Positions 3,560 to 23,265 are shown, counted from the first letter of the stretch. The stretch: DNA of 64,000 nucleotides from Edaphobacter lichenicola (GCF_025264645.1 NZ_CP073696.1:1674001-1738000); one strand, 5' to 3'. The notes: generated by a model not told the origin, from the sequence alone. A program made the numbers and translations.

Positions 3560-3676
3560 TCAGAAGGTCAAACGCAAGGCCGCTTGCAGAGAAGCGTGGG
3601 ATTCAGCACTTGGCAAGATAGTGGAAAGATAATCTGAGCGCAAGTAATGATAAACGCCTATTTGGTCAGTTATCTG
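3560..3676 (-). pseudogene. 3' remnant of an outer-membrane beta-barrel gene
   Basis: On the minus strand a short frame directly upstream of the NamZ gene encodes a peptide containing GVYHYLRSDYLST and ending SLQAALRLTF followed by a stop. The alternating pattern and the terminal phenylalanine are typical of the last strands of outer-membrane beta-barrel proteins. A stop codon (3677-3679) cuts the frame on its N-terminal side and there is no start signal, so this is read as the tail of a lost gene. It was found by hand translation; the family is not identified. Confidence 0.45.
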
Positions 3677-3759
3677 TTACTACCTATAAGCCGACTTCCC
3701 GTTATCAACAATGTGCGGTGCAGTGCCTAACTGAGGGATGCCATCTTGATTGCTTATAT

Positions 3760-5346
3760 CTACGGCTCATGGGGAGCGAAGCTCTCGGCGCTCGCAGGAT
3801 CACCTTTACCCTTGTACTTCGCTTCGAGCGGATAGGGGTACACTGGCCGGGTGAACGCTGGCCCACTCGGGCCATTATGAGTAGCGATGACCATGTCGGG
3901 AGCGCGCCCGTTCTCAACCCAAGTTTCTAGGTAGCTGATGTAATCGACGTTCGTGGCACCCTCCCCACCACCACAATGGCCCATCCCAGGAATCATGAAC
4001 AATCTGAAAAAATCACGCGTAGATGCCGGCCCGCCCATCGTCCTTTCCACCGTCTCGTAATAATGCACTACCTTCAAGGGCGGAACTCCACCTGCTCCGG
4101 CATCAGCCCATCCCTGATAAGCAATGAGCTTGCCGCCGCGAGATTTGAACGCTGTTAGATCCGGATTATTTGCTGCGTAGAGGGCGTCGGTCATACCGAA
4201 ACGCCGGCTGTAGCGCTCGAAATCCAGTTCGCTGATACGCCAATTCGGCCCCGGTGATGGCCAGAACGCCATAAACTTCAAATAGTCGGTGTCAAAGGAT
4301 GAGAAGTGCCCAGATTTGTAATATTCGCCGAAGGCGAGCTCCGAACCTGGCATCAGAGCGCCATCTTTATAGAGAATCGTGCCATCCGAAGCGGTAGGGC
4401 CGCTGTATATTTTCTTCAATGCGGCAAGCTGTTCTCTCGATAAGCACCTGCTCTGTTCGACACCTTTACAAAGCAAGGTCGCTATGTCGAATCGGCAGTT
4501 GCGGGGGTCCCCGATCAACCCGTCTCGCACTCCATCGTTCATGTCACAAGCAGATACGACGGATGTGTGAACAGTTTCCAGATCAGTCTCGCTCAGAATG
4601 GAACGTCCATCCGCCCTTCGTAGAGAGACGGCGGCCCAGAGTCTTATTAATATAGTTCCGGCTTGATCGGAGGCTGGAGCACCAGCAATTATGCCGTCGA
4701 AGTCACCAGGAAAGCGCTGGGCCTCCATCATTCCCTCGCGGCCACCAGTAGAACAGCCGCAGAAATAAGACTTACTCGGTGCTCTCGCATAGAAGCGCTC
4801 AGATATGGCCTTTCCGGCAAGCGCAGTCACATGCGCCGCACGGTAGCCAAAATCGACTTCCGCTTGAAGGTTGTTGTAGGCCCAGAGTTCGTCCTCAATA
4901 GTTCCTTGATGTCCCATATCAGAGGCAAGGCAGGCATAGCCTCTTTTCAATAGCGTTGGGCAGAGCCATTCCACCATTACGGTTCCACAGGCCGCAGCAC
5001 AACCAGTCTCAACAAACTTACCGTTCCAACCTGTAAGCGGTAACCTCAGCTCAAAGCGAACTTGTGGGGCCACGTAACCTTGTACTCGGCAGAAAGCCGG
5101 GCCATTTTCGGCAACATCTAGTTCCGCTCGCGCAATTGCCGTTGGTGCGTCCTCAAGGCGCGAGAAGTCTATTTGCGAGAGTTCAGTGCAGCGCAGCGCA
5201 GGAGTTGAACCCTGCGCCCCTAATTCCGCTGCAACATGCTGGGCAGTTGATTGCTGTGCGCCAGCACTGCGCGGGACCATGGCGACAAGCACCAACAGTG
5301 AGGACACAATCGTCAAGAGGAACGAAGGAGGTTTCATGGTCTTCAT
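3760..5346 (-). CDS. Tannase/feruloyl esterase family protein, secreted
   Basis: A 528-residue protein with a signal peptide (hydrophobic segment ending SAGAQQ). The nucleophile motif GCSTGGREG, preceded by a Cys, followed by AQRFPGDFDGIIAGAPA, and the C-terminal IPGMGHCGGG (catalytic His flanked by Cys) are the standard signature of the tannase/feruloyl esterase family, in which a Cys-Cys disulfide joins the Ser and His regions. Members hydrolyse ester bonds in plant polyphenols or feruloylated polysaccharides (also MHETase-type esters); the exact substrate cannot be told from sequence. Location is periplasmic or extracellular. An in-frame Met three residues after the chosen start is an alternative initiation site. 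Confidence 0.92.
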   Translation of the reverse strand: MKTMKPPSFLLTIVSSLLVLVAMVPRSAGAQQSTAQHVAAELGAQGSTPALRCTELSQIDFSRLEDAPTAIARAELDVAENGPAFCRVQGYVAPQVRFELRLPLTGWNGKFVETGCAAACGTVMVEWLCPTLLKRGYACLASDMGHQGTIEDELWAYNNLQAEVDFGYRAAHVTALAGKAISERFYARAPSKSYFCGCSTGGREGMMEAQRFPGDFDGIIAGAPASDQAGTILIRLWAAVSLRRADGRSILSETDLETVHTSVVSACDMNDGVRDGLIGDPRNCRFDIATLLCKGVEQSRCLSREQLAALKKIYSGPTASDGTILYKDGALMPGSELAFGEYYKSGHFSSFDTDYLKFMAFWPSPGPNWRISELDFERYSRRFGMTDALYAANNPDLTAFKSRGGKLIAYQGWADAGAGGVPPLKVVHYYETVERTMGGPASTRDFFRLFMIPGMGHCGGGEGATNVDYISYLETWVENGRAPDMVIATHNGPSGPAFTRPVYPYPLEAKYKGKGDPASAESFAPHEP

Positions 5347-5397
5347 TCTGATATTGCTTCATTCTAATGTCAGCGTTTTCAAGTCACCCGCGGCCAT

Positions 5398-5435
5398 ATT
5401 CCAAAGGTGACACAGAATTCCAAAGGTGACACAGA
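5398..5435. repeat. 19-bp tandem direct repeat, two copies
   Basis: The 19-mer ATTCCAAAGGTGACACAGA occurs twice back to back (5398-5416 and 5417-5435), just upstream of the tannase gene. Perfect adjacent copies of an intergenic 19-mer can be an operator pair or the scar of a transposon end. Nothing in the window encodes a matching transposase. Confidence 0.7.
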
Positions 5436-5537
5436 CTCACCATAAACGCGCTTGTCGTCATCAGCTTGGTTGGTGTCTAGGATTGGGAAACGATCAATTC
5501 CATAAATGCTCTGACTGGTTTCAGTTGAAGCTAAGGG

Positions 5538-18268: not shown

Positions 18269-18294
18269 AAACGGCATCGAAGCTGATGCCGTTT
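18269..18294. terminator. Hairpin between convergent genes
   Basis: Ten-bp perfect stem AAACGGCATC/GATGCCGTTT with a six-base loop, overlapping the stop codon of the minus-strand pilin-like gene. No T tract is visible, so its role as a terminator is likely but unproven. Confidence 0.5.
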
Positions 18295-18862
18295 ACATGG
18301 CCTGCGCCACTATAAAAAGAACTCCCGTATACGTAGCAGCAGGCAGTTGCGGCAAGCTCGACAGGTTGATGCTCAGGCTCAGGTTGTCCGTGCGGCTGGC
18401 GTCGCCGAGGCTTAGGATCGAAGATATGGTGAAGAGCTGAAGACTGCTCCCGGTCCCAAAGGGACTTGTCTGAGTAAATGGAGTAAAAGTAGTGGGGAGC
18501 CCAGTTGGGACCTGCCCGCTGACGCATGAAGACGGTATAGAAGTGATGGGCGCACTGCTGCTGAGGGCTGTCGCGGAACTACCGAAAAATGCATACTCGT
18601 TAAGTGTGGATACAAGCGCTAATCCGCTCCACGAAGTTGTCACTGCAATCGGATTCGATCCGGGGGCAACTCCACTTGGAACCAGATTAAAGTTTATCGT
18701 GGCTGGCATTGCCGTTACCGTGATGCTGCCCAGGATTATGCCACGAGGCGCGGGCCGATGCGTGCCAACCGACAACACCTGCGCCTGTGCGGTACCAAAC
18801 CATACGCACCCCGCAATCCACGCCAGCAGCAGATGTCGTCTCCGTTGATTGAGCAGAATCAT
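18293..18862 (-). CDS. Secreted pilin/spore-coat-U-like protein, second copy
   Basis: A 189-residue protein with a signal peptide (ending AQAQ), then a Ser/Thr/Gly-rich beta-structured domain. It is a paralogue of the first gene of this operon (21241-21816): both share ITVTAMPATINFNL/VSATPTTVNFAL, a TTSWS/TTTWS strand, the IPSS...V.G...GLPTT(F/Y)T.FTQT stretch, and an ending (A)ATYTG.(L/M)...AQA(M/L). That layout resembles small fimbrial or spore-coat-U (Csu-type) subunits, but no clear family signature allows certainty. It starts one base after the barrel gene's stop, so it is certainly in the same operon. Confidence 0.75.
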   Translation of the reverse strand: MILLNQRRRHLLLAWIAGCVWFGTAQAQVLSVGTHRPAPRGIILGSITVTAMPATINFNLVPSGVAPGSNPIAVTTSWSGLALVSTLNEYAFFGSSATALSSSAPITSIPSSCVSGQVPTGLPTTFTPFTQTSPFGTGSSLQLFTISSILSLGDASRTDNLSLSINLSSLPQLPAATYTGVLFIVAQAM

Positions 18863-18863
18863 C

Positions 18864-20474
18864 CTAACTTCTGCCCCGTGGAGTCTTCTCCACTACAACG
18901 GTCATGACTGTCTGATCTTCGCTTGCACTGCTGGTCGCCTCTGCCGGAGCGGACACGACGCGATAGCTTCCACCATTCAAAAATTGATCCACCAGTACCG
19001 TAAGGGGATGCGTGCGCGGTTTGCGCTCTCTCACGTAGAAGTACCCATCCGAGTCGGTATAAACCGAAAGCTGATCGACTAAAAGCGCGGCGCCCATTAC
19101 GGGTTGTCCCGATAAGTCGAGCACTCTTCCGCGAACCATCATGCCACCCATCGAATAGTGCTGATAAGCGGCGGTTTCCATGCCTTGTTGGCGCGACACT
19201 GCACCTTCCGCCTCAGCCGTGTACAGTAACTGTCCGTCGGCAGCGACAAACGTTCCACCATTCAATGCGAGCTTTCCAAAAAGATGAATCTGAGCATTCA
19301 GGATCAGGGCTTGCTCGAAGGGAGACTCCACCCTGGCAGGAACATAATATGTCTGATAGTCCGCGCTCAACGTCGCCAGGTTGGACAAAAACGATCCCCC
19401 GAAGCCAAAGGTATTCTGCCCGTTCGATGTGTTGACAGACTGTGATAACACCCAGCGAGGGCTCAGCGTCTCTTGAACAGTAGAGATGAGCTCATCTGTA
19501 CTGTTTGAACCCTCCGGCCGGCTAACGAGATAACTTGCGCCAACATGGACTCGCGGTGTTACATCCCGACTTGCTGAGTAGACCATCGCGACATCGCTAC
19601 GACCGTCGTAGGTCGACTGAAATAACATCGCGGACATCGCGACACCCACGACCTGCAGACTGGCTGAACCTTGATTCACTGTACTGCGCAGATTATTTTG
19701 TGACTCGTAAACCGGCGTCAGATAGTTCTGCCTTCCTGCCGTAAGAGTGAGATACGGCGTCGGCCTCACCGTTAGCAGGATATTTTCGCGAGCGGGCTCC
19801 GAGGAGATTGGAGTCTGCACATCCGCACGCCTGAACTGACTCCCCGATTCGTAATAGGCCGCCTTGAGGTCAATTCGTTGCCGGTTGATTGATAGACTCG
19901 CGGCCGCGTAAGGCTGGTAGGATCCCATTCCTCCTGAGAACGCGACCTGTGTCCCTCCGCCTGAGTTCCATTCCATGCTGTACAGGGCAGTCACCTGTCT
20001 TGCCACAATGACATGTGCCGACCCCGTCCATTGTGGTGCGACTTTTCCAGTTACAAATAGAATGCCTGCCGGCGTCGCAGTGCGAGCGCCATTGAAGAAC
20101 GGACTATTGAACGTGTTTGACGTGGCTCCTGCAAATGCGTAAAGATTTGCGTCGTCCACTTTCGTTGTTACTCCCGCGCCGACTCCAGTCAAATAGTGAC
20201 CGCTGTCAAAGATATCCGTCGGAAGATTGAAAGGAATGTTGTCGATGCCCAATGTGTATCTGGCCCGTTCCGTTGCCTTCACTAGCTGCGCTCCACCATA
20301 GAACTGCCCCCCCACCGTACCCGCCCCCACCGATGTTGTATAGGTCCCGTTGCGGATGCTCACCGTTCCACCCTGCGACTGGTAGAGCGACGAGGTACCT
20401 CCGCTTAACTCGACGATCTGGGCGTTAAGAAAATCTCCGCCCACAAAGACTAAAACCAGAACGAGAACCCTCAC
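18864..20474 (-). CDS. Outer-membrane beta-barrel protein with C-terminal regulatory-like plug domain, possible short usher
   Basis: A 536-residue protein with a signal peptide (ending FLNAQ). Residues about 30-430 alternate polar and hydrophobic residues with many Gly, Tyr and Ser, typical of an outer-membrane barrel. Residues about 450-510 (VRGRVLDLSGQPVMGAALLVDQ...YTDSDGYFYVRE) resemble a carboxypeptidase-regulatory-like or usher C-terminal beta-sandwich. The start is GTG 20474, preceded by a strong GAGGAGGAGG. It lies between a chaperone-like gene and a pilin-like gene, the place of an usher, but classical ushers have about 800 residues, so this would be a reduced form. It could instead be an unrelated porin or assembly factor. 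Confidence 0.7.
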   Translation of the reverse strand: MRVLVLVLVFVGGDFLNAQIVELSGGTSSLYQSQGGTVSIRNGTYTTSVGAGTVGGQFYGGAQLVKATERARYTLGIDNIPFNLPTDIFDSGHYLTGVGAGVTTKVDDANLYAFAGATSNTFNSPFFNGARTATPAGILFVTGKVAPQWTGSAHVIVARQVTALYSMEWNSGGGTQVAFSGGMGSYQPYAAASLSINRQRIDLKAAYYESGSQFRRADVQTPISSEPARENILLTVRPTPYLTLTAGRQNYLTPVYESQNNLRSTVNQGSASLQVVGVAMSAMLFQSTYDGRSDVAMVYSASRDVTPRVHVGASYLVSRPEGSNSTDELISTVQETLSPRWVLSQSVNTSNGQNTFGFGGSFLSNLATLSADYQTYYVPARVESPFEQALILNAQIHLFGKLALNGGTFVAADGQLLYTAEAEGAVSRQQGMETAAYQHYSMGGMMVRGRVLDLSGQPVMGAALLVDQLSVYTDSDGYFYVRERKPRTHPLTVLVDQFLNGGSYRVVSAPAEATSSASEDQTVMTVVVEKTPRGRS

Positions 20475-20501
20475 CGCGACCTCCTCCTCGCTGTCTCGTT
20501 C

Positions 20502-21188
20502 TTACTGTGTGCTGCCTGTAATCGGCCGCTTGAGGTCGAAGTGCTCAAAACGAAAGTCGATCTCGGTGGGAGACTGACTCTCAGGCCAATCCATCTCTAT
20601 GTGTCTCGATCCCCCGGGCAACAAGGGGAAACCGGCAAGATCCCCGTTCGCATGATCTCCAGTAGCTTTGACCGATTGAACTCTGGCGAGAGCGTCACCA
20701 TCATTTTCGATATCGCAGCTCAACCGGCGGGTCCCGACACTGTACGAGAGATTCTTTACCTGGACTTCACTCGCCGTCAGCGGCTGCTTCTGATAGAGAT
20801 AGACCGTATGAGGCAGCATGATTCGCACATCTAAACCGTCACTGTGCCGCGGGTTTGAAAATGTGGCGTACACGGTAAACCATGCGGGCAGTTTATCCGC
20901 CGTGGCTTTGTAAAAGACGTAGTAGGTCTGTTTTGGTTGAAGCCGGACACTCATCGACGAAAGCTGAACGTGGATGTTACTGTCAAGCGGTCGAAACTGC
21001 CCCTTCCCTTCCGGAGTAATGCTGAAGCTTTTCGGCTCCAGTATCACAACCATCGGGGACAAGGTGTTATTGGTAAGCATCAGTTTTCCATCAGCTTTAC
21101 CTTTGTATTCAACGATGACTGGTTGAACAGTCTGTGCCAACACGGACGCACCAAGCCATAATGTGCCTATGAGAACTCGAAAAAACAT
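20502..21188 (-). CDS. Periplasmic pilus-chaperone-like protein
   Basis: A 228-residue protein with a signal peptide (ending VLAQ). Its first domain has the beta-sandwich layout of PapD-type chaperones: a strand of small and hydrophobic residues (KLMLTNNTLSPMVVILEPKSF), SVRLQPKQTYYVFYKA where chaperones have the pattern R-hydrophobic-x-P-G-Q, then LPAWFTVYATF, and IMLPHTVYLYQKQ before the interdomain link. The second domain is shorter. Identity to classical chaperones looks low and the assignment leans on gene order: it sits between a pilin-like subunit gene and a beta-barrel gene on the same strand. Confidence 0.6.
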   Translation of the reverse strand: MFFRVLIGTLWLGASVLAQTVQPVIVEYKGKADGKLMLTNNTLSPMVVILEPKSFSITPEGKGQFRPLDSNIHVQLSSMSVRLQPKQTYYVFYKATADKLPAWFTVYATFSNPRHSDGLDVRIMLPHTVYLYQKQPLTASEVQVKNLSYSVGTRRLSCDIENDGDALARVQSVKATGDHANGDLAGFPLLPGGSRHIEMDWPESQSPTEIDFRFEHFDLKRPITGSTQ

Positions 21189-21240
21189 GACGTCTCCCTA
21201 GTCCGTCCGAAAAGACGGAATGTCTGGCAAACCCTCTTGT

Positions 21241-21816
21241 CTAGAGGGCCTGTGCTTGAAGGGTCATGGTTCCCGTATAGGTTGCAGCAGCAAGCGTCAG
21301 CCCGGTGGTGTTGATCTCCAGGAGCAGACTGTCGACGCGAACGAAGGACCGGTTAAGCGCAGTCAGGGGAACGGTATAGATTTGCAGGCCTGCACCTGCG
21401 GTACCGAGAGCATCTGTCTGCGTAAATGCGGTGTAAGTCGTCGGCAGGCCGAGCAGATCTTCGCCAAGCACTGCCGACGAAGGGATGTTCGATACCGGTG
21501 GTCCTGCGTAAGTCAGGGCAGCAGTGGGGCTCGACAGTGAAGCAACCAGAATCACGTTGGCACGGCCAACGGCTAGTGACCAGGTTGTTGTGACAACGAC
21601 AGGAACGCTGCCCAGCGCGGTGCCAGGGACAGTGGGGAGTGCGAAGTTGACTGTGGTTGGGGTGGCTGAAACGCCAATGGATTCGGCGAGGGTTGCGTTG
21701 AGGGTGACGCTGGCTGTGTTCGAGTTAAGCTGAGCGAAGGCAAGCTGCGAACCAGGGATGAGTGTAAGAGCGACAAACAGAATTTTGAAGAGTGAAGTTG
21801 CTTTATTGCTCGGCAT
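21241..21816 (-). CDS. Secreted pilin/spore-coat-U-like protein, first gene of the operon
   Basis: A 191-residue protein with a signal peptide (hydrophobic segment ending LAFAQ). The mature part is almost all beta-type: SVTLNATLAESIGVSATPTTVNFALP, VVVTTTWSL, then an ending ATYTGTMTLQAQAL that resembles the last strand of fimbrial subunits. It is homologous to the fourth gene of the operon (18293-18862), suggesting duplication and a division into major and tip or minor subunit. The chaperone-like gene follows 52 bp downstream. No cysteine is present in the mature domain, unlike type 1 pilins. Confidence 0.75.
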   Translation of the reverse strand: MPSNKATSLFKILFVALTLIPGSQLAFAQLNSNTASVTLNATLAESIGVSATPTTVNFALPTVPGTALGSVPVVVTTTWSLAVGRANVILVASLSSPTAALTYAGPPVSNIPSSAVLGEDLLGLPTTYTAFTQTDALGTAGAGLQIYTVPLTALNRSFVRVDSLLLEINTTGLTLAAATYTGTMTLQAQAL

Positions 21817-22128: not shown

Positions 22129-23265
22129 TCAATACTCCGCAATGACTTCGCTAACGTAATCCTCGACAACGAACCGTTGCAGTTCCACGCCGCGCTCGTC
22201 CTCAATCATCCAGACATGCTGAAAAAAAGTCTTTTCTATGATGCGGTTATAAGGACCCAACTCTCCCATCGGATGAAACGCGCCATCGGGATCCATCCAG
22301 AAAACTCTGATCCTTTGGTCGCTGTTATTGATCAGTTGAAGTTCAGCCTGCCTCGAACTAACGCGCGACAGCGCCAGCTTCGAGACGCTGCGCGCACGAA
22401 TTGCTTCGATTGCAATAGGGCGCTTCCTTTGCTGGTAGAGAAGATCGAGCAGCGCAAAACCGGCTATATCCTCTTTACGCTTTGACTGCGCCTCGGCGGT
22501 ATCCGGACCGAAATACCACATCGAGAGTTCAGCCCAGTAGTCTTCTGGACTCCTCGCCGCACGGGATCCCCTCCAACGCCCGGCATTTACCGACAGTCCG
22601 AACTGAGCCTCGATCAGCTTTCGAATCTCTTCATCCAAGCCATAGTTCATCAATGCAATCGCGAACTCGCGCATGCAGAGATCGGTGGTGTCATCACCCC
22701 GGTGCGAGGCAGCTGACAGCAGACTTTCTTCTCCGCAGGCACTGTAAATACCAGACTCTGCGCGACCGCCGTCCGGGTTGCTCTTCTGTGTTGTCGCACC
22801 GCCATCGTTAATCGGGTGTCGCCCGTGATTCTCAGGGAGCTCCAAAAGACCTTGTCCTTTGCCAAGAAGATGCAGCTCCACTCCACGTTGTCTAAGATTT
22901 TGTTTCGCCACGTCCATCGAAGCCAGCATGGTTTGCATCCGCATACATCCGTCTACTAGCGCACGATCCTCTACCAACGCGGAGCCACGTATAAAGACTC
23001 CGTCGCAATCAATCGCTTTCGTATAAAAGCCGAAGTATGGCGGATCAAAGCGCTCGATCCCGGGCATCCCCGTCCCAATCTGAGCCCGTGCCGCACCCGC
23101 CATACCGTACGATAAGACAAACAGAGCTGTGGCCGGGATTCGAAACTTGAAGAATCTCTGTTCAGCGAAACCTGGGCACATCGTGGTTGAGTGGGCGCTT
23201 TCTCTGAGGTCACTCCAGCGCTGCCAGCATAGCCGACAATTACCGAAAGTAAAAGCTTTCTTCAA
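22129..23265 (-). CDS. Secreted protein with VHL-like C-terminal beta domain and probable degenerate metallopeptidase region
   Basis: A 378-residue protein. Residues about 285-372 (LQLINNSDQRIRVFWMDPDGAF...LGPYNRIIEKTFFQHVWMIEDERG) match the pattern of the von Hippel-Lindau beta-domain fold: a strand with asparagines, V-x-W-x-D-x-x-G, a T-F-x-x-H-x-W core. The central part (DCDGVFIRGSALVEDRAL...WAELSMWYFG) resembles a family I recall with an HEFAH-type zinc site, but here the corresponding stretch reads MREFAIALMNYG, lacking both histidines, so catalysis is doubtful. The TTG start has AGGTGG seven bases upstream; the hydrophobic signal-like segment begins only about 43 residues in, and a start at 23181 is possible. 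Confidence 0.65.
   Translation of the reverse strand: MKKAFTFGNCRLCWQRWSDLRESAHSTTMCPGFAEQRFFKFRIPATALFVLSYGMAGAARAQIGTGMPGIERFDPPYFGFYTKAIDCDGVFIRGSALVEDRALVDGCMRMQTMLASMDVAKQNLRQRGVELHLLGKGQGLLELPENHGRHPINDGGATTQKSNPDGGRAESGIYSACGEESLLSAASHRGDDTTDLCMREFAIALMNYGLDEEIRKLIEAQFGLSVNAGRWRGSRAARSPEDYWAELSMWYFGPDTAEAQSKRKEDIAGFALLDLLYQQRKRPIAIEAIRARSVSKLALSRVSSRQAELQLINNSDQRIRVFWMDPDGAFHPMGELGPYNRIIEKTFFQHVWMIEDERGVELQRFVVEDYVSEVIAEY

Follow-up and report, generated by a model that had tools for sequence, protein, structure and literature searches.

In the ushers FimD and PapC of the chaperone/usher (CU) systems, an N-terminal domain recruits each subunit and a plug shuts the very wide pore. Besides its 24-stranded barrel, FimD comprises one domain at the N-terminus, a plug, and two domains at the C-terminus (PMC3650583). 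Classical chaperones anchor their subunits by two basic residues of domain 1; in archaic and alternative chaperones the subunit carboxylate is anchored by Arg89 and Tyr196 with the aid of Arg174, and Pro59 of CsuC (strand D1) is a proline invariant across the CU superfamily (PMC4654587). The canonical archaic CU operons of the phylum studied here, one of them from the host's own genus (locus L103), run in the order subunit, chaperone, usher, tip, and canonical ushers of the phylum are mostly ~760-890 aa long. Here we analyzed a window of 64,000 nucleotides from the genome of Edaphobacter lichenicola (GCF_025264645.1, NZ_CP073696.1:1674001-1738000; complete, 5.66 Mb, the nearest named relatives of the host being Granulicella isolates), with a focus on four genes at positions 18293-21816. 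We consider it likely that they represent a divergent, minimal CU-type operon inherited as a unit across the class Terriglobia, and the best reading of the evidence is that it works like a CU system and forms a separate branch. The four genes, in operon order, are:

21241-21816, minus strand: subA, main subunit, probably polymerising, 191 aa (open reading frame (ORF); family lying immediately before the chaperone gene in 53/54 loci; paralogue of subB)
20502-21188, minus strand: PapD-like periplasmic chaperone, 228 aa (comparison of hidden Markov models (HMM-HMM), fold, genome match on a canonical chaperone)
18864-20474, minus strand: usher-like outer-membrane barrel protein, 536 aa (predicted structure, Foldseek, VIA)
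18293-18862, minus strand: subB, second subunit and candidate tip protein, 189 aa (ORF; identity to the subA core; position as that of the archaic tip gene)

An earlier reading of the window from the sequence alone (the sequence-only reading) had described a four-gene operon with two paralogous subunits, and both claims held: the ORF check of the window returned the four ORFs exactly there, with intergenic gaps of 52, 27, and 1 bp along the operon, and SubA and SubB are 42% identical over 153 residues (E = 3e-11). Signal peptides could be read on both subunits, the chaperone, and the barrel, and the barrel ORF has a GTG start preceded by a GAGGAGGAGG-type ribosome site. Scanning for promoters and terminators gave a signal no better than shuffles.

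The order subunit-chaperone-barrel recurs in 53 of the 54 loci collected from the class Terriglobia and therefore marks a genuine conserved operon. In the first collection, 39/40 loci consisted of one to three subunits, the chaperone, the barrel, and often one more subunit, and the same order was present in 14/14 loci of a later collection, all of which came from two other families of the class; the recurrence suggested for checking by the sequence-only reading was thus seen in dozens of genomes of Acidobacteriota. Since all four protein families are kept at 20-93% identity across the relatives and the order recurs in both collections, chance can be ruled out. At the lone exception (L069:4919-9965), a highly divergent homologue of the chaperone precedes a 139-aa ORF and, in the place of the barrel, a PAS/GAF hybrid histidine kinase. 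When the chaperone protein was searched for, it was present in 36/300 genomes of the host's family, 42/298 of the order, and 32/299 of the class, all of these samples being draws and not full surveys. In the phylum-wide sample it was confined to the host's family, save for one weak match (genome G372, E = 4.7e-5), the sole one outside the class, which turned out to lie in a canonical CU operon (L106), on its chaperone, beside a canonical usher. At three loci an extra subunit paralogue adjoins the operon on the opposite strand (L006:11077-11661, L048:2378-3055, L049:2-535).

The chaperone is a homologue of CU chaperones with a two-immunoglobulin(Ig)-domain, PapD-like fold. Direct scans of Pfam and NCBIfam gave no match for either the chaperone or the subunits, and profile searches of the chaperone and the barrel against PDB sequences (phmmer/hmmsearch) returned nothing useful. 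The HMM-HMM comparison with seven canonical CU chaperones, drawn from canonical CU operons of the same phylum, reached a probability of 98.3% over 212 columns (E = 1.6e-14), with a score of 106.7 against a maximum of 24.3 for 100 column-shuffled templates (0/100 as high). The structure models were built on alignments of 11-22 sequences; for the chaperone, Foldseek and VIA found CfaA as the best match (Z 11.7), together with EcpB, CsuC, CupB2, PapD, and FimC. In a maximum-likelihood tree the 48 new-type chaperones stand apart from the seven canonical ones with full support. At one locus (L127) the chaperone ORF has just 157 aa (5015-5488) and lies beside a 470-aa barrel (3602-5014), which may represent a single-domain chaperone or a degraded copy. 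The two domains were delimited as follows:

20787-21134, minus strand: chaperone domain 1 (residues 19-134), with the LPHTVY strand at its end as a putative G1 donor strand (boundary inferred from model strands and conservation)
20505-20786, minus strand: chaperone domain 2, residues 135-228, with N162, R169, GFPLLPG, and R195 (alignment to domain 2 of canonical chaperones)

The key residues of known chaperones were then compared site by site; Pro59 and Arg89 of CsuC were located via a PDB alignment and the other residues via alignment with canonical chaperones, the Tyr196 site being deduced from the Tyr that canonical chaperones conserve in domain 2. An equivalent of Pro59 was found in 0/47 new-family chaperones (canonical controls, 6/7), the matching F1 strand has no Arg at the Arg89 site in any of 43 (controls, 7/7), and the Tyr196 site is occupied by Pro in 44/49 (Tyr in 7/7 controls). 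The alignment of relatives holds no invariant Arg or Lys in domain 1 and therefore no counterpart of the classical Arg8/Lys112. In domain 2, the Asn (N162) and the R195 position are retained, and in the alignment R169 falls close to the site of Arg174. W103 is invariant and H127 (of LPHTVY) is present in 40/49 chaperones, which makes these two residues new candidates for subunit contact.

The barrel model (predicted local distance difference test (pLDDT) 72, predicted template modelling score (pTM) 0.59) shows 26 strands between residues 20 and 427, followed by a C-terminal beta-sandwich. The first 13 Foldseek matches are all FimD/PapC ushers (E 7e-9 to 3e-6), ahead of LptD, and in VIA the FimD translocation domain (3ohn_B) was aligned over 327 residues with Z 17.7 and a root-mean-square deviation of 4.4 Å, covering the FimD span 138-658. 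Its features are:

19194-20417, minus strand: beta-barrel of 26 predicted strands, residues 20-427, without any insertion the size of a plug (model; largest insertion among 34 relatives, 25 residues)
20196-20231, minus strand: conserved barrel loop, residues 82-93, FxLPTDxFDxSH (near-invariant in the alignment of relatives)
19791-19844, minus strand: conserved barrel loop, residues 211-228, FRRxxVxxPxxSEP (near-invariant in the alignment of relatives)
18882-19142, minus strand: single periplasmic C-terminal beta-sandwich, residues 445-531, CarboxypepD_reg-like (Pfam, E = 4.7e-6; 33/34 relatives)

These matches bear on the idea that a CU-like chaperone gene stands by chance beside the gene of an unrelated large outer-membrane transporter, with a barrel like that of LptD or a porin. 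The sequence similarity of the barrel to ushers is indeed marginal, and LptD and porins also occur in the Foldseek list, with VIA Z values of 13-15; the lead of the ushers in that list, the presence of the chaperone next to the barrel in 53/54 loci, and the 24-26 strands with the aligned FimD span, which suit an usher pore, nevertheless render this explanation very improbable, and its LptD-like version ranks low.

In our preferred reading, that of a CU-type operon, the model of moderate confidence depicts the barrel as a full-size usher-like pore of 24-26 strands. None of the 34 barrels matches the Pfam Usher family (PF00577), for which the canonical usher of L103 served as a control (E = 2e-34), and a Pfam usher search of the complete host genome found none. 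An usher N-terminal domain is missing from 34/34 relatives, in which the barrel starts right after the signal peptide; no plug is present, as no insertion exceeds 25 residues in the 34 relatives and the longest inter-strand gaps of the model are ~15-18 residues; and there is no second C-terminal usher domain, a single beta-sandwich (residues 445-531) alone following the barrel. The missing length is thus due to absent domains and not to a smaller pore. The sequence-only reading, which had taken the protein for an usher with a short barrel, was right about the kinship, the best structural matches being ushers, and needs refining as regards the pore, since the length was lost with the N-terminal domain, the plug, and one C-terminal domain. 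The carboxypeptidase-regulatory fold it had seen at the C-terminus is real, although the match (27.3 bits, residues 447-499) falls under the Pfam cut-off. Three barrels also match Pfam CooC_C weakly (E ~1e-3). In two relatives (L050:5693-7741, L051:3885-5936) a SPOR domain, which binds peptidoglycan, is fused to the C-terminus of the barrel, so that this end must be periplasmic, as in ushers. L116, L117, L119, and L123 encode longer barrels (712-739 aa), which extend C-terminally by ~170 residues without any match in Pfam.

The two subunit types differ at their N-termini and share their C-termini. After the signal peptide, most upstream subunits carry the motif (N)S(N/G)xAxVxLxAxLxESLxV, a segment of low pLDDT that lies outside any strand and is not part of the model fold, and most downstream subunits start with Q-A-(V/I)-(R/K)-V and continue with a stretch rich in Pro and Arg. 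At the C-terminus, both types have the conserved strand YTGTLxLQAQA-COOH. In the operon of the window these segments are:

21733-21816, minus strand: SubA signal peptide, residues 1-28 (hydrophobic stretch up to AFA|Q, at the same place in relatives)
21682-21732, minus strand: N-terminal extension of the mature SubA protein, QLNSNTASVTLNATLAE, candidate for a donor strand, with an alternating A-V-L-A-L pattern (motif of upstream subunits)
18728-18781, minus strand: Arg/Pro-rich N-terminal segment of the mature SubB protein, QVLSVGTHRPAPRGIILG, lacking the donor-strand motif (upstream and downstream subunits compared)

As judged from these sequences, the upstream subunit may be a polymerising pilin and the downstream one a tip protein. 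The same subunits could instead form a non-polymeric surface coat or an adhesin pair, i.e., a CU-related machinery would export and anchor both beta-sandwich proteins, with the chaperone escorting them and the barrel passing or holding them. Such a function would suit the low number of subunit genes (the chaperone is preceded by one to three), the lack of both plug and N-terminal domain for processive cycling, and the SPOR domain of some barrels, which would fix the pore to peptidoglycan. The donor-strand-type alternating hydrophobic N-terminus would, however, be pointless without chain growth, yet the upstream subunits keep it, and the operon layout matches that of pilus operons; we regard this alternative as improbable, if less so than an unrelated transporter.

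Several observations weigh against a CU-type operon that assembles fibres. For the subunits, neither Pfam nor the PDB chains gave a significant sequence match, and in their HMM-HMM comparison with SCPU pilins (PF05229) 10/100 shuffles scored as high. (A first version of this comparison, with E = 5.7e-4, had included the signal peptides, and the match vanished after trimming and shuffling.) As the sequences did not establish homology to SCPU pilins, step-by-step polymerisation is something we infer. A subunit-chaperone complex, one of the predictions proposed in the sequence-only reading, was modelled as a fusion (L002, stop read-through) and gave no confident interdomain arrangement (pTM 0.43), nor any support for donor-strand pairing. 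Between barrel and ushers, the HMM-HMM score of 23.4 barely exceeds the best of 60 shuffles (22.1), and the homology of the barrel to ushers consequently hangs on a mid-confidence model. Judging by the alignments, the new chaperones lack the subunit-anchoring residues of the known ones. Finally, an usher without both N-terminal domain and plug conflicts with the established mechanism of FimD and PapC (PMC3650583). The divergent CU-type system that had been read from the sequence is nonetheless largely borne out by the homology of the chaperone, the usher-like barrel, and the recurring gene order; neither of the outcomes that it had named as refuting, unrelated folds or a gene order seen once, was observed.

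If the operon assembles fibres in the manner of a CU system, its parts may act as follows. The subunits, the chaperone, and the barrel, all with signal peptides, would be exported to the periplasm, where the chaperone would bind the supposedly incomplete Ig-like subunits; its G1 strand (the LPHTVY region) would complete the fold of the subunit, and the conserved C-terminus of the subunit would lie in the cleft between the two chaperone domains. As there is no N-terminal domain to recruit them, chaperone:subunit complexes would use the C-terminal beta-sandwich, on the periplasmic side of the barrel, as their docking site. SubB, which has no donor-strand N-terminus, would go in first as tip or cap, followed by copies of SubA, and the N-terminal strand of each incoming SubA would displace the chaperone from the preceding subunit; the motif difference between the two subunits is consistent with such an exchange. 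The growing chain would exit via the large barrel. Since a plug is lacking, gating would have to be provided by the single C-terminal domain, the conserved inward or extracellular loops, or a resident subunit. The C-terminal domain of PapC is reported to be structurally homologous to the PapC plug in a paper cited in PMC3650583, and it is therefore conceivable, by analogy and as a speculation, that the single C-terminal domain here also gates the pore.

Upstream of the operon, on the same strand, lies a 378-aa gene (22129-23265) whose product weakly matches the VHL beta-domain at the C-terminus (E = 0.0028); the gene adjoins the operon only in close relatives (L002, L003, L041). The host genome also holds one lone SCPU-type pilin (C1:72457-72840, L111; PF05229, E = 2.8e-17), though no Pfam usher. 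The canonical archaic CU operon of the host's genus (L103:4237-8220, genome G130) has the same gene order, and G130 lacks the new system; among the genomes sampled for both canonical CU operons and the new system, none had both.

Our search of the open-access literature on CU systems in Acidobacteria or Granulicella and on ushers without an N-terminal domain found nothing on this system, and an operon type spread across soil acidobacteria seems to have gone undescribed there. A natural usher-like pore without N-terminal domain and plug would reveal which parts of pilus assembly are essential, recruitment and gating would become directly testable in a far smaller machine, and a large group of soil bacteria would gain a surface-fibre system that is invisible to Pfam and NCBIfam.

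Compared with the classical CU systems (FimC/FimD, PapD/PapC), the barrel aligns with the FimD/PapC translocation domain and the chaperone has the two Ig domains, but the N-terminal domain, the plug, the second C-terminal domain, and the equivalents of Arg8/Lys112 are all missing. The alternative or class 5 systems (CfaA-CfaB, CooC) are alike in that the chaperone comes closest to CfaA in structure, in the weak CooC_C matches of three barrels, and in their cysteine-poor subunits; they differ in that the new barrel has neither N-terminal domain nor plug, the chaperone has no Arg89, and the subunits have no sequence match. The archaic systems (Csu type, with SCPU pilin, CsuC-like chaperone, PF00577 usher, and tip; e.g., L103) share the gene order, a homologous chaperone, an usher-like barrel, and subunits that end in a G-x-Y-x-(D/G)-type C-terminal strand, whereas their usher has about 770 aa and the new barrel of 536 aa is devoid of the N-terminal domain, the plug, and a PF00577 match, the new chaperone is devoid of a PapD_N match and of equivalents of Pro59, Arg89, and Tyr196 (PMC4654587), and the new subunits are mostly cysteine-free in their main part (51/78), SCPU pilins having mostly two or more cysteines. 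As the defining features of the classes were looked for and found wanting, the operon is not filed under the classical, archaic, or alternative class. We give about even chances to its being a fourth, Terriglobia-specific class of the CU pathway, which would build fibres via a pore with one C-terminal domain and with chaperone anchoring residues unlike those of any known class.

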